This document shows, piece after piece, positions 7,708 through 41,385 of a stretch of 64,000 bases of DNA (position 1 is its first letter; the number at the start of each line of letters is the position of its first letter). The notes beneath the pieces were generated by a model. It was given only the letters and a program-made list of their open reading frames with translations. It was not told the origin of the DNA and did not search any database. Location of the stretch: NCBI GenBank assembly GCA_026225215.1, contig JAMFSI010000167.1, forward strand, positions 1-64,000, given 5' to 3'. A program made the position numbers and the translations under genes. Origin of the DNA: Sphingomonas palustris (GTDB lineage: Bacteria; Pseudomonadota; Alphaproteobacteria; Sphingomonadales; Sphingomonadaceae).

Positions 7708-7763
7708 TGTAGGGCCATGGTCGATCTGAAATGAACGTCGGATTATTGCGAGTGCGTTGGTGC

Positions 7764-7932
7764 CTGATCCGAAACTTCGTTTCGGATAGTCGGTACCGGC
7801 CCGCTCCCCCGGCCCAACCACCCACAGGGTACCTGTAACGGGTGGTACCAACCCGGGGGAGCGGGCCGGTACCGACTTCGAAATTTGCTCTTTCGCGAAT
7901 TTCGATTATCCGAAACGAAGTTTCGGGTCAGA
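7764..7932. repeat. Palindromic intergenic element, copy 1
   Basis: First 61 nt (7764-7824) identical to copy 2 at 19266-19326; nested hairpins CCGAAACttCGTTTCGG and GTCGGTACCGGCCCGCTCCCCCGG...CCGGGGGAGCGGGCCGGTACCGAC. Confidence 0.9.
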
Positions 7933-15936: not shown

Positions 15937-17184
15937 ATGACTCAGCGCTCCCGACTTATTGCCGCGATGCTCCTGACCTATTTCACTTATGGGATGCTGC
16001 TGAACACCGTGGGCACGGTTATTCTGCAGTCGATGGCGAGCCTCGGCGTCACCAAGGGGCAGGCGGGCTGGTTCGACGGCTTCAAGGATATCAGCATCGC
16101 GGGGGTGTCGTTCCTCACCGCAAGCTACCTGCCTCGCCTCGGCCTCAAGCGCGCGCTGCAGGTCGGGCTGGCATTGTCGGCCTTGGCCTGCGTGGCAGTG
16201 CGCATGGTGCCGTCCTATGCGGCGCTCTGCCTGCATTTCATGCTGATCGGCACGTCCTTCGCCTTCGTCAAAGTCGCCATATATACGCTGATCGGCCATG
16301 TTACCGAGGACGGGAGATCGCACGCCAGCCTCGCTTCGATCATCGAGGGCGGCTTCATGATCGGGGTGCTATCGGTCACCTTGCTGCTCAGCCTGTTTGT
16401 CGGGCATTCGCTCATCGACACTAGCCGCACCTGGCTCAACGCCTATTGGATCATGGCGGGGCTATGCCTGTTGTGTCTGGCGCTGCTGAGCACCGTTTCG
16501 ATCGAGCGCCAGACATTGGAGCCTAGCCGCGATCAGGCCTCCATCGCCGAGATGCTGCGATTGGCGCGGTTGCCGCTGGTCCTGGTCTTCATCTTCTGCG
16601 CCTTCACTTATGTGTTCATCGAGCAGGGCATCGGGACCTGGCTGCCGACCTTCAACAATGAGGTGCTCAAGCTACCGCAATCGATGAGCGTGATCGCCGG
16701 CAGCTTCTACGCCGCCTCGATCGCCATGGGCAGGCTGGCGGGCGGCGGGTTGATCCGCCGTTTTGGCTGGTATCCGGTGATCAATGCCTGCCTGGTGTTG
16801 GTCGCCGGCACCATCCTGCTGATCGCGCCGCTGAGCGCGCATGGGCCACAGGCGCCGGTGACCGATTGGCTGCATGCCCCGCTCGCGGCCTATCTGTTCC
16901 TCGCGGTGGGCGCGTTTCTCGCGCCGATCTATCCCACCATCGTCTCGGTGCTGCTCTCGGCCAGTCCCAGGGCGCGCCATGCCGAGCTGATGGGGCTGGT
17001 GGTGATCTTTTCGGCGCTCGGCGGCACCACCGGGTCGCGCCTGACGGCGATGCTGTTCGCCAGCCTCAGCGGCGCCACGGCCTTCGGCTGCATGGTGATC
17101 CCGGCGGTGATTCTCATTGGCGGAGTGTTCCAGCTACGCCGGCATCAGCTGCTGGCAGAGAATCTCAAGCCGGTAGAGCATTGA
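15937..17184 (+). CDS. MFS transporter (sugar-type)
   Basis: 415 aa, 12-TM pattern, immediately downstream of the GH65 / TonB receptor genes. Confidence 0.85.
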   Translation: MTQRSRLIAAMLLTYFTYGMLLNTVGTVILQSMASLGVTKGQAGWFDGFKDISIAGVSFLTASYLPRLGLKRALQVGLALSALACVAVRMVPSYAALCLHFMLIGTSFAFVKVAIYTLIGHVTEDGRSHASLASIIEGGFMIGVLSVTLLLSLFVGHSLIDTSRTWLNAYWIMAGLCLLCLALLSTVSIERQTLEPSRDQASIAEMLRLARLPLVLVFIFCAFTYVFIEQGIGTWLPTFNNEVLKLPQSMSVIAGSFYAASIAMGRLAGGGLIRRFGWYPVINACLVLVAGTILLIAPLSAHGPQAPVTDWLHAPLAAYLFLAVGAFLAPIYPTIVSVLLSASPRARHAELMGLVVIFSALGGTTGSRLTAMLFASLSGATAFGCMVIPAVILIGGVFQLRRHQLLAENLKPVEH

Positions 17185-17839
17185 TCGCGATAGTAATGCG
17201 CGTCTCATCGCTATCATGCGGCTCGACATAATGCTCCAGCCAATGCGGAAACAGCACTAGCAGGCCAGCATGCGGAGCCAGCCGTACCTCCTTGCAGGCA
17301 TTGGCGCCGTTGCCTTTGTATGGCGAGTTCAGCACGCCGGGACGCGGATCGCGAAACACCAGCGGGCCCGAGCCTTCGGGAACCTGGATATAGAAGCAGC
17401 CGCTGAGCAGGACATTGTCGTGCATGTGGAGAAAATTGAATCCGCCCCGGTCATGCATGTTAACCCAGGACTGGAGTCCGAAAGGACACGGCCCGCCCGC
17501 CATCTCCTCCAGGACGCCGGCAACCAGGCGCCTGATTTCGGGTGCCAGAGCCGCAAAACCGGCCATGTCGAGTATCGCGTTGTCCTGGCTGTTCCAGCCG
17601 GAACGGTTGGTACGTCCTGCTAGCTGGGGCTGCTGCTCGCGCAGGCGTTCGATCTCGCGCACCCAGCCGGCCAACCGGTCCTCGAACTGGGGCAGCCGAG
17701 CTTGCCAAATCTCGGTCGGAAACAACGTGTGCCGAGTGATCCGGGCAGGGCTCTGCCCGCCGACAGCGCCAGCGATCTTAAAGTTGGGGCTAAACGAACT
17801 GGCCATCGAAATGCTCGCCCCTCCTGGGTTTCTATTCAT
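17165..17839 (-). CDS. Putative 2OG-Fe(II) oxygenase (TIGR02466-like)
   Basis: HTLFPTEIWQARLP..., WVNMHDRGGFNFLHMHDNVLLSGCFYIQVPEGSGPLVFRDPR, LVLFPHWLEHYVEPHDSDETRITIAIN; 20-bp convergent overlap with the MFS gene. Confidence 0.75.
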   Translation of the reverse strand: MNRNPGGASISMASSFSPNFKIAGAVGGQSPARITRHTLFPTEIWQARLPQFEDRLAGWVREIERLREQQPQLAGRTNRSGWNSQDNAILDMAGFAALAPEIRRLVAGVLEEMAGGPCPFGLQSWVNMHDRGGFNFLHMHDNVLLSGCFYIQVPEGSGPLVFRDPRPGVLNSPYKGNGANACKEVRLAPHAGLLVLFPHWLEHYVEPHDSDETRITIAINALPA

Positions 17840-17958
17840 CTTCGCGTTTCTCTTGCCTTCCCTCTGCTTGGTGGCAAGTGCAGATGCGGGTAAATTCCAC
17901 GGGCCGATCCTGGAAAGTGGTATTTTGGCAGACCGAGGCCATCGGGGCGTTCACCCCA

Positions 17959-19212
17959 TCAGACACTGCCGATCGGCGTTGCCGCAGGCGAAGCCATCCG
18001 TCGCGCGCTCAGCAGCAGCGCGGCGCCGAGCGCCAGGAAGGCAGCCTCGCCGACGATGGCGCCCGCATAGGAGCCGGTTCGCGCGAAGACCAGCGCCGCT
18101 GCCGGCACGCAGAGCACGCTGAACGGCAAATTGACTAGGTTCATCAGGCCGTAGCTGCGGCTGAAGTTCCGAGCGCCGAAAGCCCGGCTCAGCATGACCC
18201 CCAGCACCGGCATGACACCCGCCCCGTGGAAACCGATCAGGCCGATCAATACCGCCGTGATCGGGAACGGCGGTCGCAAGAGCAGGAGCAGCCACAAGCC
18301 TATGCTATCGATCACCACCAGCAGCATCGCCGTTGCCCCGCCCAGCCGGTCGGCCAGCCAGCCAAAGAACACCGTGCCGAACATGCCCACGAAGGATTGC
18401 AGAGATAGCAAACTCGCCGCCAGCGCGAGCGAAAAGCCCCAGGACTGAAACATCGGCACCATATGCGCGGTCAGGATGATCGAGCCGATGAGCGAAGCGA
18501 TCGCCGGCAGGATCGTGGCCCAGAACCGAAAGCTGCCCAGCAATTGCATCATCGCGATCGGCTGAGCAGGGCCGGCCCCTGACACCGTTCCCTCGGCCAC
18601 TGCGGCATCGCGGCTGCCAAACTCCGGCGGCTGGTCGACGATAAACAGGCAGGACACGGCGGCGATTGCCGCCAATGCCGCTAGGATACGATAGGCCCCC
18701 GCCAGCCCCAGCGCGTGGAGCGCCCAGGTCGAAATCAAGGGCACGATCACGATGACGATCGGCGCCGATACAAACCCCAGAACGCGACCGCTGTTAACCC
18801 GGAACCATCGTGTCACCAATGTCGGCGGCAGCACCACGGCGGTGGCGAATCCCGGCCCGAGCAGCAAGCCAAACGCGATCATGTACATCGTGTAGCTCGA
18901 CGCCACCGAGAGCAGGAGATAGCCGGCAACGGTGAGCAGCGCGCCCAGCAGCATGATCGTGCGCAGCGACAAGCGCGTTGCCAGCAGGCCGGTGACCGGC
19001 GCCAGCAGCGAGGTTGCCAGCAACACCGCCGGCGTGCCCAGCGTGCTGAAGGCCCGGCCGATGCCATAGCGCGCCTCATTGGCGGCCAGCAGCACGCTGA
19101 ACGATCCCCAAACGCAGCCGAAGGTAATGTTCTGGTGAAGGAAAGCGATCACCGCCATGCGCCGGGCCAGCGGATGGTTCGACTCGCTCGTAGCTGCGGA
19201 CAATGGCTTCAC
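17959..19212 (-). CDS. MFS transporter
   Basis: 417 aa, 12-TM pattern. Confidence 0.85.
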   Translation of the reverse strand: MKPLSAATSESNHPLARRMAVIAFLHQNITFGCVWGSFSVLLAANEARYGIGRAFSTLGTPAVLLATSLLAPVTGLLATRLSLRTIMLLGALLTVAGYLLLSVASSYTMYMIAFGLLLGPGFATAVVLPPTLVTRWFRVNSGRVLGFVSAPIVIVIVPLISTWALHALGLAGAYRILAALAAIAAVSCLFIVDQPPEFGSRDAAVAEGTVSGAGPAQPIAMMQLLGSFRFWATILPAIASLIGSIILTAHMVPMFQSWGFSLALAASLLSLQSFVGMFGTVFFGWLADRLGGATAMLLVVIDSIGLWLLLLLRPPFPITAVLIGLIGFHGAGVMPVLGVMLSRAFGARNFSRSYGLMNLVNLPFSVLCVPAAALVFARTGSYAGAIVGEAAFLALGAALLLSARRMASPAATPIGSV

Positions 19213-19264
19213 CTTTCCCGTTCAATCATCGCGCGGGGTTACCGCGCGGAGTAACATTTTAGTG

Positions 19265-19413
19265 TCTGATCCGAAACTTCGTTTCGGATAGTCGGTACCG
19301 GCCCGCTCCCCCGGCCCAACCACCCATATAGAGTACCCTCGGGGTGGTTGGGCCGGGGGAGCGGGCCGGTACCGACTTCTAAATCCGCTCTTTCGCGGAT
19401 TTAGAAGTCGGTT
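19265..19413. repeat. Palindromic intergenic element, copy 2
   Basis: Perfect 35-bp arms GTCGGTACCGGCCCGCTCCCCCGGCCCAACCACCC (19291-19325) and its reverse complement (19342-19376) with a 16-nt loop; flanking hairpins CCGAAACttCGTTTCGG and TAAATCCGCtctttcGCGGATTTA. Confidence 0.92.
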
Positions 19414-20599
19414 CTTCCGTCCGCCACCGTCCGGGCAGCGCAATATCCGTCCGGTCCAGTTCGCGCACCGAGGCGCGGCCCAGCGAACGCAGGGTCGCCA
19501 GCATCTCTGCATGGAAAACCTCGAAGATCCGGCGCACGCCCGGCTCGCCGGCACCCGCGAAGGCGTAAAGATAGGCACGGCCGATCAAAACGGCGCGAGC
19601 GCCGATCGCGAGCGCCTTGATGACATCGGAGCCCCGCCGGATGCCGCCGTCGACATAGACCTCGAGATCCTGGCCGACGGCATCGACGATCCCCGGCAAG
19701 ACGCTGATCGGAACCGGACTGCCATCGACATTTCGGGCCGCGTGATTGGACACGACGATCGCATCGAACCCGGCATCGACGGCGCGGCGGGCATCATCTG
19801 CGCGAAGTACGCCCTTCATGACGATCGGCCCTTGCCACCGGCCGCGAATCCACGGCAGATCATCCCATGTCGCGCAGGTATCGCCGCCGCCGAAGGCCTG
19901 GATGACGTCGCCAAAGGAGGCGACCTTGCCATCTGGTTTCACCCACATCGGACAATCGAAGCGCATGCCATCGCGCATGAAATCGAGCGTCCAGCCGAGT
20001 TTGGTGACAAGCTGCGGCATATAGCTGAGCGCGGTGGCGAGGTTGCGTCCGATCGCCGAGCGATCACCGGCCGCCTGGGGTTTCTCGACGCCATGCGTGG
20101 CCATCATGTCCATCGTCAGCACCAGCGCCTCACAGCCGGCCCGCTGTGCGGCGTCGATCATCGCTTCGGTGACGGCGCGCCCGCCGATGGTGTAGAGATT
20201 GAAAAACACCGGCGCCTGTGCCTGCGCCATGGTGTCCGCCAGCGGATAGCCGGTGAGGCAGCTCGTCACATAGACAGCGCCCAATTTACCCGCCGCCGTG
20301 GCCAACGCCGGTTCGCCCTCCTGGCGGAACATGCGGTTGGACCCGGTTGGCGCGATCATAATCGGCGTGGCGACATCATGGCCGAGAATGCGGCTCGACA
20401 GATCGTAGCTCGAGTGGCGGATGGCGGCACGCGGGCGGAACTCGACATCGCCGAACGCCTCGACATTGCGGCGCAGGGTCAGTTCCTGGCCGGCGCCGCT
20501 GGCGATACTGTCGAACAGGGCCTTGGGCAGACGTCGCCGCGCCAACCGCTCGGCATCGGCAAAGCCGTTTATCGCCGGTACGCTCCTGCCTTGCCCCAT
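19379..20599 (-). CDS. FMN-dependent alpha-hydroxy acid dehydrogenase/oxidase (LldD / lactate 2-monooxygenase-like)
   Basis: PIMIAPTGSNRMFRQEGEPALATAAGKLGAVYVTS, IVMKGVLRADDARRAVDAGFDAIVVSNHAARNVDGSPV, VYVDGGIRRGSDVIKALAIGARAVLIGRAYLYAF; C-terminal TSKSAKERI is encoded by the repeat element. Confidence 0.9.
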   Translation of the reverse strand: MGQGRSVPAINGFADAERLARRRLPKALFDSIASGAGQELTLRRNVEAFGDVEFRPRAAIRHSSYDLSSRILGHDVATPIMIAPTGSNRMFRQEGEPALATAAGKLGAVYVTSCLTGYPLADTMAQAQAPVFFNLYTIGGRAVTEAMIDAAQRAGCEALVLTMDMMATHGVEKPQAAGDRSAIGRNLATALSYMPQLVTKLGWTLDFMRDGMRFDCPMWVKPDGKVASFGDVIQAFGGGDTCATWDDLPWIRGRWQGPIVMKGVLRADDARRAVDAGFDAIVVSNHAARNVDGSPVPISVLPGIVDAVGQDLEVYVDGGIRRGSDVIKALAIGARAVLIGRAYLYAFAGAGEPGVRRIFEVFHAEMLATLRSLGRASVRELDRTDIALPGRWRTEEPTSKSAKERI

Positions 20600-20600
20600 C

Positions 20601-21188
20601 TTACGCGCTGACGGCGTGAGTATCGCCGTCCGCATCCCACACCCTGGGCTGCCGAGGCGCGCGCGGGCGCAACGGCCGTTGATAGCTTGCGTCGTGCCTG
20701 TCACGGGTTGATGGCTGGTCTTGCGCTGCGGGATAGGAAGCGGGGCCGATTGCGAGATTGGACAGATCATCGACCCCGAGCTGGCTCTCGACCAGGGTGA
20801 TGCGGTTGGCGAAGCGCCATTCGCCATCGCGGCGCTGGAAATGATCGATATAGCGGCCGGTGGATATGAAATGCGGCGGTTCTGCGGCTACCCCGACGAA
20901 CAGATAATAGGTTTCGGCATGCGCATCATCGCCATCCACGGTGCAGAAGTGGTTGAGCAGCCCGTGAGAGGTTTTCTCGAAGCTCAGCGTCATGGCGTCG
21001 GCATAATCGAGGAACTGATCGGGAGCGCCGACAAAGCGACCGTGGTCCTCGACCGTATCGTCGAAATAGCAGGATCGCACCAGCGCGCGATCGACGCGAT
21101 CGAGACCGCGTGCATACCGCTGAAGAACTTGCCATATTGCATCGCGATCGATGATATCGCGGAGCTTTCTCTCCATGGCTTCGTCCAT
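20601..21188 (-). CDS. SnoaL-like / NTF2-fold protein
   Basis: MDEAMERKLRDIIDRDAIWQVLQRYARGLDRVDRALVRSCYFDDTVEDHG..., typical SnoaL_4 N-terminus. Confidence 0.8.
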   Translation of the reverse strand: MDEAMERKLRDIIDRDAIWQVLQRYARGLDRVDRALVRSCYFDDTVEDHGRFVGAPDQFLDYADAMTLSFEKTSHGLLNHFCTVDGDDAHAETYYLFVGVAAEPPHFISTGRYIDHFQRRDGEWRFANRITLVESQLGVDDLSNLAIGPASYPAAQDQPSTRDRHDASYQRPLRPRAPRQPRVWDADGDTHAVSA

Positions 21189-21243
21189 ATTTCGCCTCCA
21201 AAAAGAATAGAGCAGATGAGCGGAGTTTCGCCGTTGGCGAGGC

Positions 21244-21948
21244 CTATCGAATGATTTTGCGGTTTCGCGATGACTGGCGATGAATGGGAGCGGAAAGGGC
21301 TCCGATCGACATATCGATGATCGGCTCGATGTCGTAGCTTTCGCGATTGCTGCCGAGTGCCGTCTGTGCGTTGTCATATTCGATCACGGAGGACAAAAAC
21401 ATCATGCTGAGTATCGAAATGCGCCGATAGTAGACCCTCTGGCTTAGGTCGCCGAAGTGCGATCGCAGCATGTTTCCTGCAGAAAAAAGCGTCGATTGCC
21501 GGCCCTCGATGTTGATCCGTGACAGCCCGGTCCTGGGATCCCCGCTATAATAGGGATGGGTGCCGACCTCGGGGTTGAGATAATATTGCAGTGAAAACCG
21601 GCAGAAGGCGTGGCGACCGTCCGGCATGGCCATCGTCAGATCGGGAAGCCACATGATCTTCAGCAGATCTCGCGCGTCGATGCCGGCCGGGTTGGCGTCT
21701 TTCAGAGCCTCGAACTGCTTCATCCGCACGGCATCGACGCGAAACACCCGGTCGGCGAGAATGGCGCTGACGAAGCCGTGCTTGCTGCCGAAATGATATT
21801 GGACGGCGCTGCGGTTGCGTTGGCCCGCCGCTTCGGCAACCTCCTTCAAGGAAATGCGCTCGAACCCGAAAGCGCCGAACAAATGCTCCCCCGTCTCGAT
21901 CAGGCGCTGCTTGGTTGAAATGTTCTCGGTCTGCGGGTCTTGATCCAC
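21244..21948 (-). CDS. TetR family transcriptional regulator
   Basis: STKQRLIETGEHLFGAFGFERISLKEVAEAAGQRNRSAVQYHFGSKHGFVSAIL; GTG at 21948 preceded by AAGGAAG. Confidence 0.88.
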   Translation of the reverse strand: MDQDPQTENISTKQRLIETGEHLFGAFGFERISLKEVAEAAGQRNRSAVQYHFGSKHGFVSAILADRVFRVDAVRMKQFEALKDANPAGIDARDLLKIMWLPDLTMAMPDGRHAFCRFSLQYYLNPEVGTHPYYSGDPRTGLSRINIEGRQSTLFSAGNMLRSHFGDLSQRVYYRRISILSMMFLSSVIEYDNAQTALGSNRESYDIEPIIDMSIGALSAPIHRQSSRNRKIIR

Positions 21949-22061
21949 GGCTTCCTTACCTATGGTTGGGCGCGCGAGCGGGAAGGCGACTCGCGGTGCC
22001 CGGGGTATCCATAGATGGGCCACCGGCACAACCTGTTGTTCCGGAACTGCAATGGCGCGCG

Positions 22062-24134
22062 TCAGCATCTCAAGAGCGCCCGGGTCGCCATCGAGCCGCC
22101 GTCCTTCGCCTTGTGCCCGGTCAGGACGGCTCGCGCGCCGGAGCGGATATAGGCATGCACGGCCTTCACTTGATCCCGCGAGAGATTGTCGAACCGGGGC
22201 ATGCCGTTCTGCATCAGCGCGCCGTCATGCAGCACGCTCCACAGCGTATCTAGGTTGAGCGCCAGCGCGGACTCGCGAAGATCCGGGGCGTTGCCGCCCG
22301 ACACCAGATTGATGCCGTGGCACACCAGGCAATTCATGTAGACTTGCCGTCCAGTCGCGACATCGCTGTCGCTGATCTTGATCGACGGATCGTCGATGGG
22401 ATGGACCGCCAGATCGGGCGGCGCCGGTCGCGGCAGATGCTTGTTCCCGTCGAGGGTAAACGTCAGCAGGCGGCGCATCTGCGCCCCGAACTTCCAGCCC
22501 GTCCGCATCAAATCATTACCGACGCCGGCCGATCCGCCGTAGCCGACCAGCACCGAGACATATTGCTTGCCACCGACCGCATAGCTGATCGGCGCAGCCT
22601 GGATGCCGAGCCCGGCGTCGAAGCGCCACAACCGCTTGCCGGTGCTAGTATCATAGGCGGAGAACAAGCCGTCCGCGGTTCCCTGGAACACCAGGCTGCC
22701 CGCGGTGGCGAGCGTGCCGCCGTTCCAGAAGGTGGGCAGACGGACTTTCCAGGCCGCTTGCTGGCGCACCGGATCCCACGCCAGGAGCGAGGCCGTGCCA
22801 TCCTCGGCGTCGCTTTTCGCCTCGCTGATCTGGATGCCGCCGAAGGAGGATTCGCCGGGTTTAGGCACTACTTTGCTGAACTTGGCGCCGGCCTGGGTGT
22901 AGGGAATGAAGGCAAGCCCGGCTTTGGGGCTGTAGGCCATCGCCTGCCAATTATGGGTGCCCAGCGAACTCGGCCACATCGAGGTCTCGCCGGTCTCGTA
23001 GCGGATGTTCGGCGCCTCGACCGGTCGACCGGTTTTGAGATCGATATGATCCGCCCAGCTTATCTTCCCGGTCTTGCCGGCCGAGAGCAGCTTGCCGGTC
23101 TCTCGGTCGAGCACATAGAAGAAGCCGTTAGTGGGGGCCTGCATCAGCACTTTGCGCGGGTGCCCATCGACCGCAATCGTTGCCATAACGATGTTGGCGG
23201 TGGCCTTGTAATCCCAGGCCTCGCGCGGATTGACTTGATAATGCCAAAGATATTTGCCGGTCTCCGCGTCGAGCGCGACGATCGAGGCGAGATAGAGATT
23301 GTCGCCGCCGCCGGGGCTGCGCACGCTCGGATCATATGGCCCCGAATTGCCGGTGCCGATATAGACCCGTTTCAGCTCCGGGTCGTAAGTCATGCCATTC
23401 CAGACCGTGCCGCCGGTGCCGGTTTTCCAATATTCGCCGCCCCAGGTCTTGGCGGCGGCTTCCATCGCGGGATCGCCCTTATTTTCCTCGGGCGATCCGG
23501 GGGCCGTGTAGAAGCGCCAGGCCCGCTGCCCGGTCGCGGCGTCATAAGCGGTGACGTAACCGCGCGCGCCATAATCCGCGCCGGCATTGCCGATGATCAC
23601 CTTGTCGCCGATCACGCGCGGCGCGCCCGTGCTGTAGCGGACGCCATCGCCCTCGATCGTCTCGGCGCTCCACAGCGGTTTGCCGGTCTTGGCGTCGACC
23701 GCGATCAGCCGTCCGTCGAGGGTGCAGATATAGACTCGCCCCGCTGAATAAGCCGCGCCGCGGTTGACCCCGAAATTGTAGCGCATCCGCTCCGGATGAT
23801 GGTTCCAGATCTCGGGGTCATAGCGCCACAGCACGCGGCCGGTTCGTCCATCGACGGCGTAAACCGCCGAGTAGCTGCCGGTGAAATACAGCGTACCATC
23901 GACGGCGATCGGCGTTCCCTCGAGCGTCACTTCGGCTGGTAGATCGGTGTACCAGGCCAATCCGAGCCTGCCAATATTCGCTCGGTCGATGGCCGCAAGT
24001 CGACTGTAGTCGCTCTCGTCCGGCGCGCCCCCCGGCCCTGGCCAGTTGGCGTTCGCGCCAATCTCTTCCTGCCCGCGCGCAAAACCCGCGAGCAGCAGCA
24101 ACGAGAGCGCAGCCGGTACCGAGATCCCCTTCAT
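22062..24134 (-). CDS. PQQ-dependent quinohemoprotein alcohol dehydrogenase with C-terminal cytochrome c domain
   Basis: Signal peptide; WYTDLPAEVTLEGTPIAVDGTLYFTGSYSAVYAVDGRTGRVLWRYDPE propeller; CLVCH heme motif near the C-terminus. Confidence 0.92.
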   Translation of the reverse strand: MKGISVPAALSLLLLAGFARGQEEIGANANWPGPGGAPDESDYSRLAAIDRANIGRLGLAWYTDLPAEVTLEGTPIAVDGTLYFTGSYSAVYAVDGRTGRVLWRYDPEIWNHHPERMRYNFGVNRGAAYSAGRVYICTLDGRLIAVDAKTGKPLWSAETIEGDGVRYSTGAPRVIGDKVIIGNAGADYGARGYVTAYDAATGQRAWRFYTAPGSPEENKGDPAMEAAAKTWGGEYWKTGTGGTVWNGMTYDPELKRVYIGTGNSGPYDPSVRSPGGGDNLYLASIVALDAETGKYLWHYQVNPREAWDYKATANIVMATIAVDGHPRKVLMQAPTNGFFYVLDRETGKLLSAGKTGKISWADHIDLKTGRPVEAPNIRYETGETSMWPSSLGTHNWQAMAYSPKAGLAFIPYTQAGAKFSKVVPKPGESSFGGIQISEAKSDAEDGTASLLAWDPVRQQAAWKVRLPTFWNGGTLATAGSLVFQGTADGLFSAYDTSTGKRLWRFDAGLGIQAAPISYAVGGKQYVSVLVGYGGSAGVGNDLMRTGWKFGAQMRRLLTFTLDGNKHLPRPAPPDLAVHPIDDPSIKISDSDVATGRQVYMNCLVCHGINLVSGGNAPDLRESALALNLDTLWSVLHDGALMQNGMPRFDNLSRDQVKAVHAYIRSGARAVLTGHKAKDGGSMATRALLRC

Positions 24135-24148
24135 GGCAAAGGGCCTCC

Positions 24149-26590
24149 TCAGCGACCGAACCGAACGCGCAGCCGGGCGCCGACCATGCGCGGTTCGCCG
24201 AGCTGGGCGTTTTCCAGACCGACGGATGTGTAAGTCCCGGCGACGTAGCTGAAATACTGCTTGTTCGTGAGGTTGGTGACAAAGACGCTGAGATCGAATG
24301 GTTTGCCCATCACCGAGGCCCAGGTGATATTCGCGTTTACCAGCCCGATCGGCGCAATCGTGCCATAGGGGCTGGCCAGGGTGATAAGCTGGCGGGATTT
24401 GTAGGAATAAGTCGCGCTGACCGAAATATGGCCATCGTCGTCCGGCAGCGGCAGTGTATATGTCGCGGTCGCGCTGAGCTGGTTCGTGGCAGCGAGCGGG
24501 AGCACACCGCCGACCGAGGTTGTCGGAGCGAAGGTGTCGTAGCGGCTGCCTGGGACCGTCGGCGGGAAGGAGATCGAGAGCAGTTTGGTATTCAGATAGG
24601 TATAGGCGCCATCGAGGGTGAGGCCGGCGAACGGCGTGACGGTCGCCTCGACCTCTCCGCCCCAGATGCGCGACTTGCCAGCGTTAGTAATACCCTCGGT
24701 CGGCTCCGCAAGATTCAACGATGAACTGAAGCCGATATTGAGCTGCTGGTTGTCGAATTTATTGTAGAAGCCGGCGACATCGAAGGTTCCACGCACCGGA
24801 GCGGCGAAGGTGGTCTTCAGGCCGGCCTCGAAGCTGTCGAGCTTTTCCGGTTTGAAGGTGTTGTAACCCTCGGGCGCATTCTGGACGACATCGCCTTGAC
24901 GGTAGCCGCGCGCATATTTGGCGTAGAGCAGCACATTCTCGTCGGGCTTGTAATCGAGGTCGATCAGCCAGGTCGGCGCGCTCGATTTCTCGGTGTAGCG
25001 TGCATTGCAATCGGTCGGCGAGGTGATCGGCAAAGCCGGATTGCGGATGAAGGTGTTCTGGCAGTATCCGACTGGATTGTTGGGCGTCGGGAAATTATAA
25101 TCGACATAGAAACCTTCGCTCGTAGAATAGTCGGAGGTAAAACGAATGCCGGCGGTCAGTTTGAGCTGATCGGTCAGCTTGTAATTGGCTTGCGCATAGA
25201 CGGCGAGATCGGTGCTTTTCTTCGACACGGTGTCATCGACCACGAAACCTGTCGGACGACCGGCGAGGGCTCCGAGGTAGTCGGTGCATTGGAAGGCATT
25301 GACGTTGGTGCAGCTGATAAGCGTCGGCACGCGCGCGCCCGATGGTCCGTTGGGTTCCGACAATTCGAAGTAAGCGCCGGCCTGGTACGTCAGCCGCCGG
25401 TCGAAGGCATTGCCCTGGATCTGGAACTCTTCGGTCAGCAGCGATGACTGGCCGATGGCCGCGCCTGGCCGCGAATTGACTTCGGTAAAGGGAAAAGATG
25501 GATTGCCGGGCGCCGGAAAGGTCCAGTTGACCCCGAACAGATCGTTGAACAGATAATCCTGGAAGGCGCCGTAGCTGAGGATGTTCTTGATCGTAAACCG
25601 ATCGCTGGCATGCCAGGTGGTGGTGTTGATCACTTGCCATTCCCTGAAGCGTGAAGCGGCATCCGGGTTGTCGTTCTGAACCGAATAGAAGCCGCGATTG
25701 GCGTTGGCGGCGAGTTGCGGCGCGCAGAGAAAGTTGAATGCATTGTTCGGGTTGCAAGCAAAGAGCTTGGGCACGGTGCCATTGGTATCCGACTTGGAAT
25801 AATAGCCGACCGTGTAATTTTCGAGATTGGGTAATAAGTCGACGACCATGCTGGCCCGCAGCGCGAGATAATTGACATCGTCGAAATTGGTGGGCCCGAT
25901 GCCGGAGGTGTTGATAACGTAGCCGTCACGCGTTTGGTGGTCGATGCCGAAGCGGAGGCGCACCGTTTGACTGACGGGAATGTTGATGACAGCCTGAGTG
26001 CGGACCATGTTATAATTGCCGACCGAGCCTTCGACATAACCTTCGAACTTGTCGGTCGGCCGTTGCGGCACCAGCAGAATATCGCCGCCCGTCGTATTGC
26101 GCCCGAACAGCGTGCCCTGCGGGCCCTTCAGGACCTGAACGTTCTGGAGATCGAAGAACAGGCCGGGACCGGCTCCGTCGCCCGAAGGTACCGCGCCGAC
26201 GCCGCCATGCGGCGCCACCACGTCGGCGAAATAAACGCCCACGGAGGGTGCTGTATTACCGTCCTGCGTGAAACCGCGGATCGAGAAGGTCGTGTTCTGC
26301 GCGCCGAACTGCTGGCTCGCCGTCAACGACGGGACATAGGCGGCGAGATCCTGCGGGTTGAAGATATTGCGGGTGGTCAACTGGGCTTGATTAAGCACCG
26401 AAACCGAGATGGGAACGTCTTGCAACCGTTCCTCGATGCGCCGCGCTGTTACCACGATATCGCCCGGATTTGCTGCGGCATTACTATTACCACCGTCGGC
26501 GCTCGGGGAAGACTGCGCGAAGGCTGGTATGGCCATCCCACATGTCAATGACGTTGTGATGCACAGCGAGAGGAAAGCTTTCTTGTTCAT
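24149..26590 (-). CDS. TonB-dependent receptor
   Basis: Signal peptide MNKKAFLSLCITTSLTCGMAIPAFAQ; DIVVTARRIEERLQDVPISVSVL; NVQVLKGPQGTLFGRNTTGGDILLV. Confidence 0.95.
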   Translation of the reverse strand: MNKKAFLSLCITTSLTCGMAIPAFAQSSPSADGGNSNAAANPGDIVVTARRIEERLQDVPISVSVLNQAQLTTRNIFNPQDLAAYVPSLTASQQFGAQNTTFSIRGFTQDGNTAPSVGVYFADVVAPHGGVGAVPSGDGAGPGLFFDLQNVQVLKGPQGTLFGRNTTGGDILLVPQRPTDKFEGYVEGSVGNYNMVRTQAVINIPVSQTVRLRFGIDHQTRDGYVINTSGIGPTNFDDVNYLALRASMVVDLLPNLENYTVGYYSKSDTNGTVPKLFACNPNNAFNFLCAPQLAANANRGFYSVQNDNPDAASRFREWQVINTTTWHASDRFTIKNILSYGAFQDYLFNDLFGVNWTFPAPGNPSFPFTEVNSRPGAAIGQSSLLTEEFQIQGNAFDRRLTYQAGAYFELSEPNGPSGARVPTLISCTNVNAFQCTDYLGALAGRPTGFVVDDTVSKKSTDLAVYAQANYKLTDQLKLTAGIRFTSDYSTSEGFYVDYNFPTPNNPVGYCQNTFIRNPALPITSPTDCNARYTEKSSAPTWLIDLDYKPDENVLLYAKYARGYRQGDVVQNAPEGYNTFKPEKLDSFEAGLKTTFAAPVRGTFDVAGFYNKFDNQQLNIGFSSSLNLAEPTEGITNAGKSRIWGGEVEATVTPFAGLTLDGAYTYLNTKLLSISFPPTVPGSRYDTFAPTTSVGGVLPLAATNQLSATATYTLPLPDDDGHISVSATYSYKSRQLITLASPYGTIAPIGLVNANITWASVMGKPFDLSVFVTNLTNKQYFSYVAGTYTSVGLENAQLGEPRMVGARLRVRFGR

Positions 26591-26612
26591 TATACCCGCT
26601 CCCAATTTGATT

Positions 26613-27350
26613 TTATGGTTGATTTACAATTATTTGAATTCCATATGCGAAGGTGATCGCTATGATTTGCTCCCGCCGAGCTGCGGCGACGCGCGGCGCG
26701 AAGGATTTTTCGAAGAAGGCCTCATATTCCGCGCGGCCGCCGGCCGGCATGCCGTTGTGGCTGCGTTCGCGCTCGGCGGTGGCGCGCAACAGTGGCAGCA
26801 GGCGTTCAAGATGCCGCGCGGGAATGACGATCACCCCCTCGCGATCGGCGACGACGATGTCGCCGGGAATGACGCAGACGCCGCCGCAGCTGACCGGCAC
26901 GTTGATCTCGCCATGGCCGCCGATCGTCGGCTTGCGTGGTATGGTCGCACGGGCGAAGACCGGGAAACCCAGGGCTTCGATCCCCTCGACATCGCGCGAA
27001 GCGCCGTCGATCACGATCGCGGCGACGCCGAGGCCCTGTGCCCATCCGCTGAAATATTCCCCCCACACCGCGCGCGACATGTCGCCGCGGGCATCGACGA
27101 CGAGGACGTCACCCGGCCGCGCCGTCTTCAGCGCCGCCGAGATCATCACGAAGTCGCCGGGCGGTACCGTCACCGTGACCGCCGGGCCGACGATGCGGGA
27201 CAGGCGCGGATGGATCGGCCGGATGCGGTGATCCATCAGATGCAGCTCCATGGTATCGCTGATCCAGGCGATCTCGTAACCGCGCAGTTCCTCGATGACC
27301 TCGGGCGAGGGCGGCGGCGGCAGTTCGCCGAAGGTGAAGGAGCCGCTCAT
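26613..27350 (-). CDS. RraA-like / 4-hydroxy-4-methyl-2-oxoglutarate aldolase family protein
   Basis: GPAVTVTVPPGDFVMISAALKTARPGDVLVVDARGD, GVAAIVIDGASRDVEGIEALGFPVFAR, CVIPGDIVVADREGVIVIP. Confidence 0.88.
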   Translation of the reverse strand: MSGSFTFGELPPPPSPEVIEELRGYEIAWISDTMELHLMDHRIRPIHPRLSRIVGPAVTVTVPPGDFVMISAALKTARPGDVLVVDARGDMSRAVWGEYFSGWAQGLGVAAIVIDGASRDVEGIEALGFPVFARATIPRKPTIGGHGEINVPVSCGGVCVIPGDIVVADREGVIVIPARHLERLLPLLRATAERERSHNGMPAGGRAEYEAFFEKSFAPRVAAARREQIIAITFAYGIQIIVNQP

Positions 27351-27396
27351 CGCCGGCACGCCCGTTCGATCGAAAATTTCATCCCCATTCCCCCGT

Positions 27397-29013
27397 TTAG
27401 AAAAACGCTGCCGCCCGCTCACCGATCATGATGGCGGTCGCATTGGGACAGCGCCGGACCACCTTCGGCATGATCGAAGTATCGACGATGCGAAGATTGG
27501 CGATGCCGTGAACGCGGCAGTGCTGGTCCACCACCGAGTTGTCGATCGAGGTGCCGATCCGACAACTGCTCGCCATGTGCAGCGACGTGCCGACATGGGC
27601 GCGCAGATGCTCGTCGAGCAGCGCGTCGGACCCCAAAGTCTCGTCATGTATCGCTACCCGGCGGGCGCCGATCGCGCGATAGGAATCGCTGCCGATCAGC
27701 CGCGCCGAAAGCCGCATCCCTTCGCGCAGCCGGCGCAGATCTTCGGCATCCTCCAGATAATGATAATCGACGATCGGCGCGCCGAACGGCTCCGCCGAAG
27801 CCAGCCGGATCTCGCCGCGACTGCGCCCCTGCATCAGGATCACCGTGATCGACAGGTTCCATTGGGTGGTGAGCTGGTCATTGAGTTTGGACCAGGACAG
27901 CTGCCGCGCGCCGAGCGCGAGGCCACGCAGGCGTTGCCCGAGCGTGGCGGTCTGCAAGATCGCCGCATTGAGCGGGGTGACGCCCGCCATTAGCATCATG
28001 TCGCTGTGATCGTCCGAGCCGGGCGTGGTGTAGTGCAGACCGGCCTCGGCCATCGCCCGCTTGGTCGGATCGACATGCATCCGCTTGGTGCCGGGCACCG
28101 AGAGCGGCATCTGCAGCGTGCAGTGATCGGTGAAGTTGCGGCCGACATGCGGCGACTCGAGCGCGACCGGAATGCCGAACGTCGTGAGTTCCTCGGCCGG
28201 CCCAATTCCCGAGAGCATGAGCAGATGCGGCGATTTGATCGCGCCGGCGCTCAAGACGATCTCGCCACCATGAATTTCGATCGTCTCACCGGCGCGCTCG
28301 GCCAGGATGCCGATCGCCTGGCCGCCGGACAACAGGATGCGGCGGACATTGGTGTCCGGCAGCACGTCGAGGTTGGTGCGGCCGTCGGCGGGATCGAGAT
28401 AAGCGAGCGCCGCATTGTAGCGCAAACCATCGACATTGTTGAGCGGCAGCGCACCGTAACCGATCGAGGCGGGCGCATTCATGTCCGCGTCGTGCGAAAA
28501 GCCGGCCTGCGCGCATGCCGTAGCAAAAGCATGCGACGCCGGCGACCACTGCGCCTCCCGGACGCGATGCACCGGGATCGGCCCCGCCTTGCCGTGGTGG
28601 TTGCCGCTCATGTCGGCATCGCGCTCGAGCTTGTTGAAATAGGGCAGCACCGCCTCATAGGACCAGGCGCTGGCGCCGCCCTGTGCCCAGCCGTCGAAAT
28701 CTTCGGCCAGGCCGCGCGTGAAAACGGTACCGTTGATCGCGCTCGATCCGCCGACGACGCGGCCGCGTGACAGCGGCTGCTGCACCCCCTGCCGCAGATT
28801 GGCGACGAAACCCCAATTGTTGGGATGGCCCGGTACGCTGGCGCCGAACAGTGCGCCGTAACGCAGCTCGGGCGGATAGCTGTCGATGCCGATATAGCGT
28901 GGCCCGGCCTCGACCAGCAGGACCGAGCGCCGGGAGTCCTCGGACAATCGCGCCGCGAGCGCGCAGCCGGAAGAGCCCGCCCCGATAATGATGACATCGT
29001 AGTGCTTACGCAC
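27397..29013 (-). CDS. GMC family FAD-dependent oxidoreductase (choline dehydrogenase-like)
   Basis: YDVIIIGAGSSGCALAARLSEDSRRSVLLVEAG, RGRVVGGSSAINGTVFTRGLAEDFDGWAQ, C-terminal HMASSCRIGT...NLRIVDTSIMP. Confidence 0.93.
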   Translation of the reverse strand: MRKHYDVIIIGAGSSGCALAARLSEDSRRSVLLVEAGPRYIGIDSYPPELRYGALFGASVPGHPNNWGFVANLRQGVQQPLSRGRVVGGSSAINGTVFTRGLAEDFDGWAQGGASAWSYEAVLPYFNKLERDADMSGNHHGKAGPIPVHRVREAQWSPASHAFATACAQAGFSHDADMNAPASIGYGALPLNNVDGLRYNAALAYLDPADGRTNLDVLPDTNVRRILLSGGQAIGILAERAGETIEIHGGEIVLSAGAIKSPHLLMLSGIGPAEELTTFGIPVALESPHVGRNFTDHCTLQMPLSVPGTKRMHVDPTKRAMAEAGLHYTTPGSDDHSDMMLMAGVTPLNAAILQTATLGQRLRGLALGARQLSWSKLNDQLTTQWNLSITVILMQGRSRGEIRLASAEPFGAPIVDYHYLEDAEDLRRLREGMRLSARLIGSDSYRAIGARRVAIHDETLGSDALLDEHLRAHVGTSLHMASSCRIGTSIDNSVVDQHCRVHGIANLRIVDTSIMPKVVRRCPNATAIMIGERAAAFF

Positions 29014-29890
29014 GGCGGCCCCAGCCGAGCACACGGCGCACCGTGCCGCCCAATAGCGCTTCCTTCTCCGATGCAGTCAGGACGTCGCTGTCGCGGATGA
29101 AATGGAACGAGTCGGCGTAGCGGTGTTTGCCGGGATAATCACCGAGGGTGACCGGATTCTGATGGCGTCCGATGCCGATCCGCCCGAAGAAACGGCTGGT
29201 GTCGCTCGCCCACATCAACCGCTCCGCGCCGAAGGCATCGCAGATCGCACGCAACGGCTGGGCGACATCGGCATAGGGATAGGGTTGAGCCGAGAGTGCC
29301 GGCAGACCGCAGAGCTTGACGAAGACATTCGGGAAGCGCGCCAGGGCGAGCAAATCGGGCAGCGACTTGAACGGGGGCTGCTCGGGCATGTCCAGCGGCG
29401 GCTGGCGCAGGCCGAGATGATCGATGATCAGGATCAGCTCCGGGAAGCGCTCGGCGATTTGCGTTGCCGCGGGCAGCCAGCCGGTGATGAACAGGAACAC
29501 CGGTACGCGATGTCGTTCGCAGGCCGCGAAAATCGGATCCCACGCTCCCGCTTCAAGCCGCCGCACCTCGGCGCCATCGAGTGGCCAGCCGATCAGCACG
29601 CGAAATCCGACCAGACCCGCCTGCTGCCGCGCCTCGGTGATGACCCGGTCGAGATCGGGCGTTTCCGGCGTGATCGGGGGGACGAAGGCGAAGCGATCGG
29701 GCAGCGCCGCCGCCGCCCAGGCCGCCGTCGCATAATCACCGCCCGGAAAGATGATGCTGCCATCGACGCCGACCGCATCCATGTAGGCGACCATCACCTC
29801 GGTGAGGATGCGGTGCTGACTCTCTTCGCTCTCACCCGTCCAGTCTGCCCATGGACCGATTTCGTGGAGCTGTGCATCGATGATCTGCAC
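29006..29890 (-). CDS. Amidohydrolase family 2 metal-dependent hydrolase/decarboxylase
   Basis: MQIIDAQLHEIGPWADW, LILIIDHLGLRQPP, LMWASDTSRFFG; TIM-barrel metal ligand pattern. Confidence 0.85.
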   Translation of the reverse strand: MQIIDAQLHEIGPWADWTGESEESQHRILTEVMVAYMDAVGVDGSIIFPGGDYATAAWAAAALPDRFAFVPPITPETPDLDRVITEARQQAGLVGFRVLIGWPLDGAEVRRLEAGAWDPIFAACERHRVPVFLFITGWLPAATQIAERFPELILIIDHLGLRQPPLDMPEQPPFKSLPDLLALARFPNVFVKLCGLPALSAQPYPYADVAQPLRAICDAFGAERLMWASDTSRFFGRIGIGRHQNPVTLGDYPGKHRYADSFHFIRDSDVLTASEKEALLGGTVRRVLGWGRRA

Positions 29891-29919
29891 GCCATTCCTC
29901 CCCTGCTTCTTATGAACGC

Positions 29920-29970
29920 CAATCTAATCGAGTCGATTAAACTGTCAAGGGAGATAATCGATTCGATTAA
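29920..29970 (-). promoter_or_regulatory. Promoter with two 15-bp palindromic operators upstream of the amidohydrolase operon
   Basis: TAATCGAGTCGATTA (29925-29939) and TAATCGATTCGATTA (29955-29969), centres exactly 30 bp apart; TTGACA on the minus strand (29948-29943) between them with TAGATT 16 nt downstream. Confidence 0.7.
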
Positions 29971-30209
29971 TGGTGTCGTGTTGAGCGGGCTAACGGCGCT
30001 GTCAGTCAATGCTATCAACGCTTGCCAGGTGGCACCACATCGCCGTTGGTCGCAACACACATCGAGCAACCGGATTCGCGCCATTGACGTTTCCCAGCGC
30101 GATGAGGTGCTGACGGGATGGAGCAGGAAAAAACAGACATGAGTTGGCAAAGCTCGCGGGCCTGGTGATGCCCTGTATGGAAGCTCACAAAACCTTTTCG
30201 CACGAACCT

Positions 30210-31265
30210 CTACAGGGGGGCATGGTCCAATTTGGGCAACACATGCCGCGCAAACAGATCGGCCTCTGCCGCATGGGGATAGCCGGACAGGATGAAGGCA
30301 TCGATGCCCATGGCGCGGTACATGATGAGCTTGGCCAGCACTTGATCGGGGTCTCCGACTATGGCCGCACCACAGCCGGAGCGGGCCTGCCCAATGCCCG
30401 TCCAGAGATTATCCTCCACATAGCCATCAATGGCGCGTTGGCGCAGCGCCGTCTGAGCCTGAACGCCGACGGATTGTGAATCCAGCGAGCTGGCGCGGAT
30501 CGCAGCGCCCTGCGCAAGGTCGAGTTTTGACAGCAGGCGGCTGGCGGCGGCCCGCGCTTCCGTTTCCGTTTCGCGCACGACCACATGCACGCGGTACCCG
30601 AAGCGGAGCGTCCGGCCGTGACGGGCTGCGCGGGCCTTCATGTCCGCGATGATGGCCCCGATCTCCTCGCGTGTGTCGGGCCACATCAGATAGACATCGC
30701 AGCCTTGCGCCGCCGCTTCCCGCGCATCCGGCGAGAGGCCACCGAAATAGAACAGCGGTGCCTTGCCCGATACGGTGGCGATCCTGGGGGGATCGACCTT
30801 GATCTGCCAATATTCCCCCTGATGATCGAGCGGCTGTCCGTCGAGTAGGGTTCTGAGCATGGAAATCGCCTCGACCGTGCGGCCATAGCGGGCAGCGGAG
30901 CCAAGCATCTCCCCCGGCATTTCGGACGAGATGATATTCACCTTGAGGCGACCACCGAGCATTCGGTCGATCGTGGCGATCTGCCGGGCCAGTTGGGGCG
31001 GCCAGCTTTCTCCAATACGGACCGCCATCAGCAGAGCCAGACGGCGCAACATCGGCGCTATGCCTGCCGCGAAAGCCGTCGTGTCGATCCCCAGCGTATA
31101 GCCTGATGGCAACAGGATATTGTCAAAACCGACGTTTTCTGCCTGCAGGACAATATCGCGGCAATGCTCCCAGCTTGACCGCAGCCGTTGGTCAGGCACA
31201 CCGAGAAATTCATAATCATCGTCACACAGCGCCGAAAACCAGCTGACTTCACAAGGGCCGGTCAC
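30210..31265 (-). CDS. LLM-class flavin-dependent oxidoreductase (SsuD-like)
   Basis: ENVGFDNILLPSGYTLGIDTTAFAAGIAPM, RLALLMAVRIGESWPPQLARQIATIDRMLGGRLKVNIISSEMPGE, PLFYFGGLSPDAREAAA. Confidence 0.9.
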   Translation of the reverse strand: MTGPCEVSWFSALCDDDYEFLGVPDQRLRSSWEHCRDIVLQAENVGFDNILLPSGYTLGIDTTAFAAGIAPMLRRLALLMAVRIGESWPPQLARQIATIDRMLGGRLKVNIISSEMPGEMLGSAARYGRTVEAISMLRTLLDGQPLDHQGEYWQIKVDPPRIATVSGKAPLFYFGGLSPDAREAAAQGCDVYLMWPDTREEIGAIIADMKARAARHGRTLRFGYRVHVVVRETETEARAAASRLLSKLDLAQGAAIRASSLDSQSVGVQAQTALRQRAIDGYVEDNLWTGIGQARSGCGAAIVGDPDQVLAKLIMYRAMGIDAFILSGYPHAAEADLFARHVLPKLDHAPL

Positions 31266-40484: not shown

Positions 40485-40625
40485 CATTACCATCATTCTA
40501 CCAATTTAGTAGAAAATTTTTGTGCTGCAGTCAGTCTGATCGCAACGCGTGTCCGTGTGGCAGATTCGGGTCAAACGGTGAGCAGTCGACCGGCGCAGCT
40601 TGCAGGGTCTGACGGCCGATGAGGT

Positions 40626-40723: not shown

Positions 40724-41314
40724 TTAGCGCGTAATGGATTTGCTCTGACAGAGCGCCTCTGTGACATTGCCCATATCGACGATTGCCTGCAATGATTCCG
40801 CTAACCACTTCAGGGAGTGCGGCGAAACCCGTTCCGTTGACAGTCCATGTCTCTGGATTGCGAAGCCGGTCAGTAAGGAAAACAGGTCCATTGCCCGCTG
40901 GTCGGCATGAGGTGGACCGAGCCACTCGGCAAGTTGGCCAATCATATGCTCTCGAGAGACCCGCCTGGCAATTTCCTTTGCCTCTGGGTGGGCGAGCGCG
41001 AGCACCAGCATGCTGGTAACATTGGTCGTGGCGCGCTCCGACATCAGTTGGGACATCTTGACGCCAAAATCGTCCTTTTCCCAGACGAACACGCCGCTGA
41101 CATCCTCAACATGAAGCAATGCTTGTTCGAATAGCAGGGCCTTTGTCCCGAAGTGCTTGCTTACCAGTGAGGGCGCGACGTCCGCGCGAATGGCAATCTC
41201 GCGCAGGCTCGTCTGCGCATAGCCAAATTCGGTAAATGAAGCTGCGGCTGCCGAAAGTATCCTTATTTTCGTCTGCTCGAGGTTGCGGCGTTTCGGAGAC
41301 AGATTTGTCAGCAT
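40724..41314 (-). CDS. TetR family transcriptional regulator
   Basis: EQTKIRILSAAAASFTEFGYAQTSLREIAIRADVAPSLVSKHFGTKALLFEQAL. Confidence 0.9.
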   Translation of the reverse strand: MLTNLSPKRRNLEQTKIRILSAAAASFTEFGYAQTSLREIAIRADVAPSLVSKHFGTKALLFEQALLHVEDVSGVFVWEKDDFGVKMSQLMSERATTNVTSMLVLALAHPEAKEIARRVSREHMIGQLAEWLGPPHADQRAMDLFSLLTGFAIQRHGLSTERVSPHSLKWLAESLQAIVDMGNVTEALCQSKSITR

Positions 41315-41349: not shown

Positions 41350-41385
41350 GCAACCACAAGTGGCCGAATGGCCACTTGTGGTTGC
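41350..41385. promoter_or_regulatory. Perfect 16-bp inverted repeat; candidate regulator site or cruciform
   Basis: GCAACCACAAGTGGCC-GAAT-GGCCACTTGTGGTTGC, between divergent TetR and acyl-CoA synthetase genes; TTGACA at 41343-41348. Confidence 0.75.

Follow-up and report, generated by a model that had tools for sequence, protein, structure and literature searches.

Here, we relate a pair of palindromes in Sphingomonas palustris to the control of a catabolic operon. From the 64,000-nucleotide stretch of DNA analysed (the window), we consider it fairly probable that a dimeric repressor, likeliest the TetR-family protein encoded within the operon itself, occludes the operon promoter by binding at both palindromes. 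In line with the first-pass annotation, which had described two near-identical 15-bp palindromes with centres 30 bp apart, we found both to be exact: the promoter-proximal copy, operator 1 (TAATCGAGTCGATTA), occupies 29925–29939 (centre 29932), and the upstream copy, operator 2 (TAATCGATTCGATTA), occupies 29955–29969 (centre 29962), leaving 15 bp between their inner edges. Each is an odd palindrome with a single free central base, and this base varies. Read along the minus strand, the order is ATTAATCGAATCGATTAT-CTCCC-TTGACA-GTTTAATCGACTCGAT-TAGATT-GGCGTTCATAAGAAGCAGGGGAGGAATGGC-GTG. By promoter scan, TTGACA (29943–29948, minus strand) forms the -35 hexamer and, after a 16-base spacer, TAGATT (29921–29926, minus strand) forms the -10 hexamer. 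The earlier description of a minus-strand TTGACA between the palindromes, with one of them in the spacer, is thereby confirmed, and we extend it by noting that operator 1 fills the spacer and reaches over the first two bases of the -10 hexamer. Relative to the likely transcription start, operator 1 would be centred at about -18, and operator 2, which lies 6 bp upstream of the -35 hexamer, at about -48.

Within 29850–30230, TTGACA-N16-TAGATT is the sole promoter-like site (10 of 12 matches; 0.2 expected), and across 17150–30230 it ties for the top promoter score. Transcription would start near 29914, giving a short leader before the GTG start codon of the first gene at 29890, which stands behind GGGGAGG. 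The gene upstream of the intergenic region encodes a luciferase-like monooxygenase on the same strand as the operon, so the region drives one direction only. Downstream, all on the minus strand, are genes for an Amidohydro_2 family hydrolase (29009–29890), a GMC oxidoreductase (27400–29034), an RraA-like (aldolase-type) protein (26616–27425, true start probably near 27350), a TonB-dependent receptor (24152–26605), a PQQ-dependent alcohol dehydrogenase with a cytochrome c domain (22065–24134), the TetR-family regulator that is our candidate cognate repressor (21247–21948), a SnoaL-like protein (20604–21193) and an FMN-dependent dehydrogenase (19382–20827), probably the last gene of the transcript. 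These genes overlap or are separated by gaps of at most ~115 bp, and no promoter-like match above chance was found between them. Judged by this arrangement, the eight genes from the amidohydrolase to the FMN dehydrogenase would be co-transcribed as one operon.

Two of the enzymes resemble mycofactocin proteins. With its score, the GMC protein exceeds the NCBIfam cut-off for mycofactocin dehydrogenase MftG, and the FMN dehydrogenase shows a resemblance to MftD that stays below the cut-off. No radical-SAM MftC gene above cut-off was found in the genome, and both proteins are probably no more than ordinary dehydrogenases of the GMC and FMN types. In a Novosphingobium metagenome-assembled genome, a related cluster encodes enzymes 63–70% identical to those of the operon; over its 14.4 kb we found neither the TetR of the operon nor the twin-site motif, and conservation of the operator in this cluster was rejected; this joint absence counts in favour of TetR as the cognate.

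We propose that both palindromes are operators of one homodimeric repressor. Dimers bound at operator 1, in the spacer and at the edge of the -10 hexamer, and at operator 2, 6 bp ahead of the -35 hexamer, would flank and occlude TTGACA-N16-TAGATT, such that RNA polymerase would be kept from the one promoter that serves the catabolic operon. The likeliest repressor would be the TetR encoded by the sixth gene, which would control its own abundance from this promoter (autoregulation), and which a substrate or intermediate of the pathway may release. That the layout serves repression of the operon below had been suggested in the first-pass annotation, and we find good support for this part: the sites and the core promoter overlap, the genome has no further exact copies of them, and a run of closely packed operon genes follows.

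The protein carries the TetR_N helix-turn-helix domain (PF00440; 27.3 bits against a cut-off of 24). Its gene may begin at GTG 21948, behind AAGGAAG, or at ATG 22068, overlapping the stop codon of the PQQ-dependent alcohol dehydrogenase gene; with either start, no promoter for this gene alone is apparent, and the start overlaps the upstream stop or follows it within ~115 bp. As tetR lies inside the compact gene run whose upstream promoter the twin sites overlap, this promoter would also control TetR. It counts against TetR that repressor genes more usually diverge from their operator than lie 8 kb downstream of it. In the 3.82-Mb genome, the motif has two exact matches, both at this promoter, where ~0.006 would be expected. 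Allowing up to two mismatches adds a single site, in contig C5 and upstream of a gene for a methyltransferase-like protein, for which chance could account. A genome-wide scan of this kind had been put forward earlier as a route to the rest of the regulon or the true cognate regulator; it uncovered neither a wider regulon nor another cognate gene, and since the assembly is 93% complete, it may lack a regulator or additional sites. Because the motif is absent elsewhere, a different regulator would have no copy through which to regulate itself. Nothing relevant to the operator sequence was found in the literature.

Relatives of the operon TetR provide a further line of evidence. Among 196 genus, 400 family and 289 class genomes we found no ortholog above ~43% identity; the wider relatives are ~30–43% identical, and as even the closest reach just 40–43%, their recognition rule cannot be carried over to the operon TetR. 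In sphingomonads, these relatives adjoin TonB receptors or catabolic genes. Upstream of 24 of them, TTAA-N10-TTAA is enriched (mean 1.88 mismatches versus 2.57 ± 0.12 (SD) in shuffles), an enrichment that is weaker than the number suggests, since the 24 regions include several close relatives of one another, and that is not an independent test, since this form was picked after viewing the same regions. Other gaps between TTAA ends gave means of 2.1–2.5 mismatches, and a gap of 9 was not enriched. Clear cases are TTAAGTCATATGCGTTAA (locus L116) and TTAAGGTGATCGCCTTAA (locus L101); such dyads lie upstream of TetR relatives at L101 (9552–9571), L116 (5996–6013), L102, L117–L123 and L135, often in the intergenic region between TetR and TonB receptor genes. 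One subgroup of the sphingomonad relatives carries a strongly conserved TAACGCACCTGACTTTT element upstream.

The window sites, of the form TTAA-N9-TTA(A), have the TTAA ends in common with the dyads of these relatives, but are 1 bp shorter and differ in their inner bases. The inner CA-NN-TG of some relatives is missing from them, and with two mismatches or fewer allowed, we found the full motif of the relatives, TTAANNCANNTGNNTTAA, nowhere in the window. The sphingomonad subfamily in question (L097, L101, L102, L115–L118 and L120–L136) resembles the system described here in its helix-turn-helix of the AGQxNxxAVQYHFGSK type, in its catabolic or TonB neighbours and in the TTAA-ended dyads upstream; it differs in placing its TTAA-N10-TTAA near its own gene, whereas the N9 sites of the window are 8 kb away at the operon promoter. 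At the level of sequence, the dyads of the relatives lend weak to moderate backing to the operon TetR as the protein acting at the twin sites. The first-pass annotation had named this TetR as the obvious candidate, and we find the assignment plausible: its place inside the operon, a motif found nowhere else and the TTAA ends common to its relatives speak for it, while the one-base difference in spacing and the want of a closer ortholog speak against it.

The same spacing mismatch (N9 versus N10) leaves room for a different protein. The operators could be real and repressing, with a different dimeric protein as their cognate (of the MarR, IclR or GntR type, or a further TetR) whose gene lies elsewhere in the genome, a possibility we take seriously but regard as less probable than the operon TetR. 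An odd 15-bp palindrome at a core promoter also suits the MarR type, as illustrated by DesR of Sphingobium sp. SYK-6, a MarR-type regulator with 15-bp inverted repeats (PMC6888825). Both systems place odd 15-bp inverted repeats at promoters, in the case of DesR those of aromatic catabolism, with repression that is released by an effector and would be so here. In DesR, however, the sequence is unrelated (GTTTGTGTCACATAC), and there is one site per promoter at three targets including desR, as opposed to two sites at one target in the window. Candidates are available, as the genome has 29 MarR-like domain matches, 17 of them above cut-off and some from other winged-helix families, and the contig encodes two LacI and two LysR proteins as well as three TetR proteins besides that of the operon. 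Yet a regulator encoded elsewhere would have no second site near its own gene, given that the sole match at up to two mismatches is the one at the methyltransferase-like gene, and the other regulators of the contig adjoin other genes, with none tied to the motif. The contig regulators examined included no MarR gene. Operators of the LacI type are even palindromes with a central CG, a form that the window sites, odd with a variable central base, do not fit. As a separate observation, palindromes precede the PhyH gene (TTCTACcaatttaGTAGAA) and the second TetR gene (40727–41314; CAAGTGgccgaatggcCACTTG), at window positions 40496–40514 and 41357–41378, and these are candidate operators for the second TetR.

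A second alternative keeps one protein at both sites and divides their roles according to occupancy or ligand state, the upstream site activating and the spacer site repressing. In its favour, the centre of operator 2 near -48 would allow a bound activator to contact polymerase, and operator 1 lies in the spacer; against this, near-perfect hexamers need little activation, equally perfect sites would fill together, and the figure of -48 is approximate because the start is itself estimated. We consider such mixed control improbable.

It is less probable still that the palindromes arose by chance, or as part of a dispersed repeat, and have no regulatory role. Single odd palindromes of this size do arise several times per window; indeed, we observed 5 perfect odd 15-bp palindromes in the window versus 7.3 expected from first-order simulations, and a single one here is not special. 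A near-identical pair within 200 bp, however, appeared in 0 of 60 simulated windows, the two genomic copies compare with the small fraction of an exact match expected genome-wide, and the sites overlap the best promoter match exactly. On the twin-pair simulation and the genome-wide expectation, chance origin is statistically refuted. The window contains one further such palindrome pair, which is part of a dispersed repeat.

Assignment of the sites to a BlaI/MecI-type repressor can be practically dismissed: among 401 family genomes (our own and 400 others) the exact 15-mer has one match outside our genome, in G240, immediately upstream of a BlaI–BlaR1 pair, but the boxes of that genus read TACA-NN-TGTA and the 15-mer there arises by coincidence where two such boxes adjoin; the window sites are free of TACA-NN-TGTA and our genome (93% complete in assembly) has no PF03965 gene, so that BlaI as cognate is largely refuted. 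In the genus of G240 itself, one or two TACA-NN-TGTA boxes lie immediately upstream of BlaI-type genes at most of 25 loci (L143–L167), in two sequence classes.

The surroundings of the operon hold two further elements. A dispersed repeat occurs at 7760–7930 and 19260–19400 of the window as flanking hairpins around a very long near-perfect stem, and the copy at 19255–19400 has a predicted fold of -112.5 kcal/mol (z -14.6). Its core, CCGAAACNNNGTTTCGG, has 107 genomic copies at up to one mismatch, compared with 1 for the reversed control; no Rfam match was found over 17000–31000, and weak relatives occur on two sphingomonad plasmids. The three-hairpin copy at 19260–19400 stands just past the FMN dehydrogenase gene and could plausibly end or stabilise the transcript. 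On the minus strand at 30016–30085, close upstream of the operators, lies a relic of a LeuC/aconitase-family gene (EWRESGCSMCVATNGDVVPPGKR), which matches positions 408–428 of the Aconitase profile (E 0.0019, below the cut-off) and is perhaps the scar of a rearrangement. When plasmid DNA homologous to the operator intergenic region was sought, this relic alone was matched.

To place the preferred reading, occlusion of the promoter by repressor dimers at both sites, in a wider context, it is useful to compare it with known systems. In Tn10, the centres of tetO1 and tetO2 are 30 bp apart. There, as proposed here, two neighbouring palindromes each take one TetR dimer, overlap promoters and provide for autoregulation; the difference is that tetR and tetA diverge from the Tn10 operators, whereas the window TetR is the sixth gene of the operon it would repress, with no divergent gene. 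Since the two tet operators of the Tn10 region are reported to lack cooperativity (PMC3037858), cooperation between the window sites should not be assumed. Closer in layout are synthetic promoters of the PLtetO-1 or L type, which are repressed by TetR through two tetO2 sites (PMC3724501), one upstream of the -35 hexamer and one in the spacer, thus flanking the -35 hexamer as in the window. Their operator cores span -52 to -40 and -27 to -15, and the window operators would span roughly -55 to -41 and -25 to -11. The window promoter is nonetheless natural, its operator sequence is another one (15 bp and odd), its centre distance of 30 bp is larger and its repressor is putative. By this analogy of mechanism, the twin-site promoter would be a repressor–operator switch of a familiar kind, with a layout like that of a widely used synthetic promoter.

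More tentatively, we suggest a broader picture in which the sphingomonad TetR subfamily reads TTAA-ended dyads whose spacing shifts between 10 and 9 bp. The two dyads described here would then be a natural counterpart of the two-tetO promoters, and the position of the repressor gene in mid-operon would provide delayed negative feedback.

No long-standing question depends on the twin-site switch. For a catabolic operon that is uncharacterised and belongs to a lineage of degraders, it offers a switch that is precise and open to test. With two exact copies in its own genome and almost none in 400 relatives, the operator is likely orthogonal, and could serve as a tight inducible promoter for sphingomonads. 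Beyond this operon, TTAA-N10-TTAA is a candidate operator rule for a common subfamily of sphingomonad TetR proteins encoded near TonB receptors.
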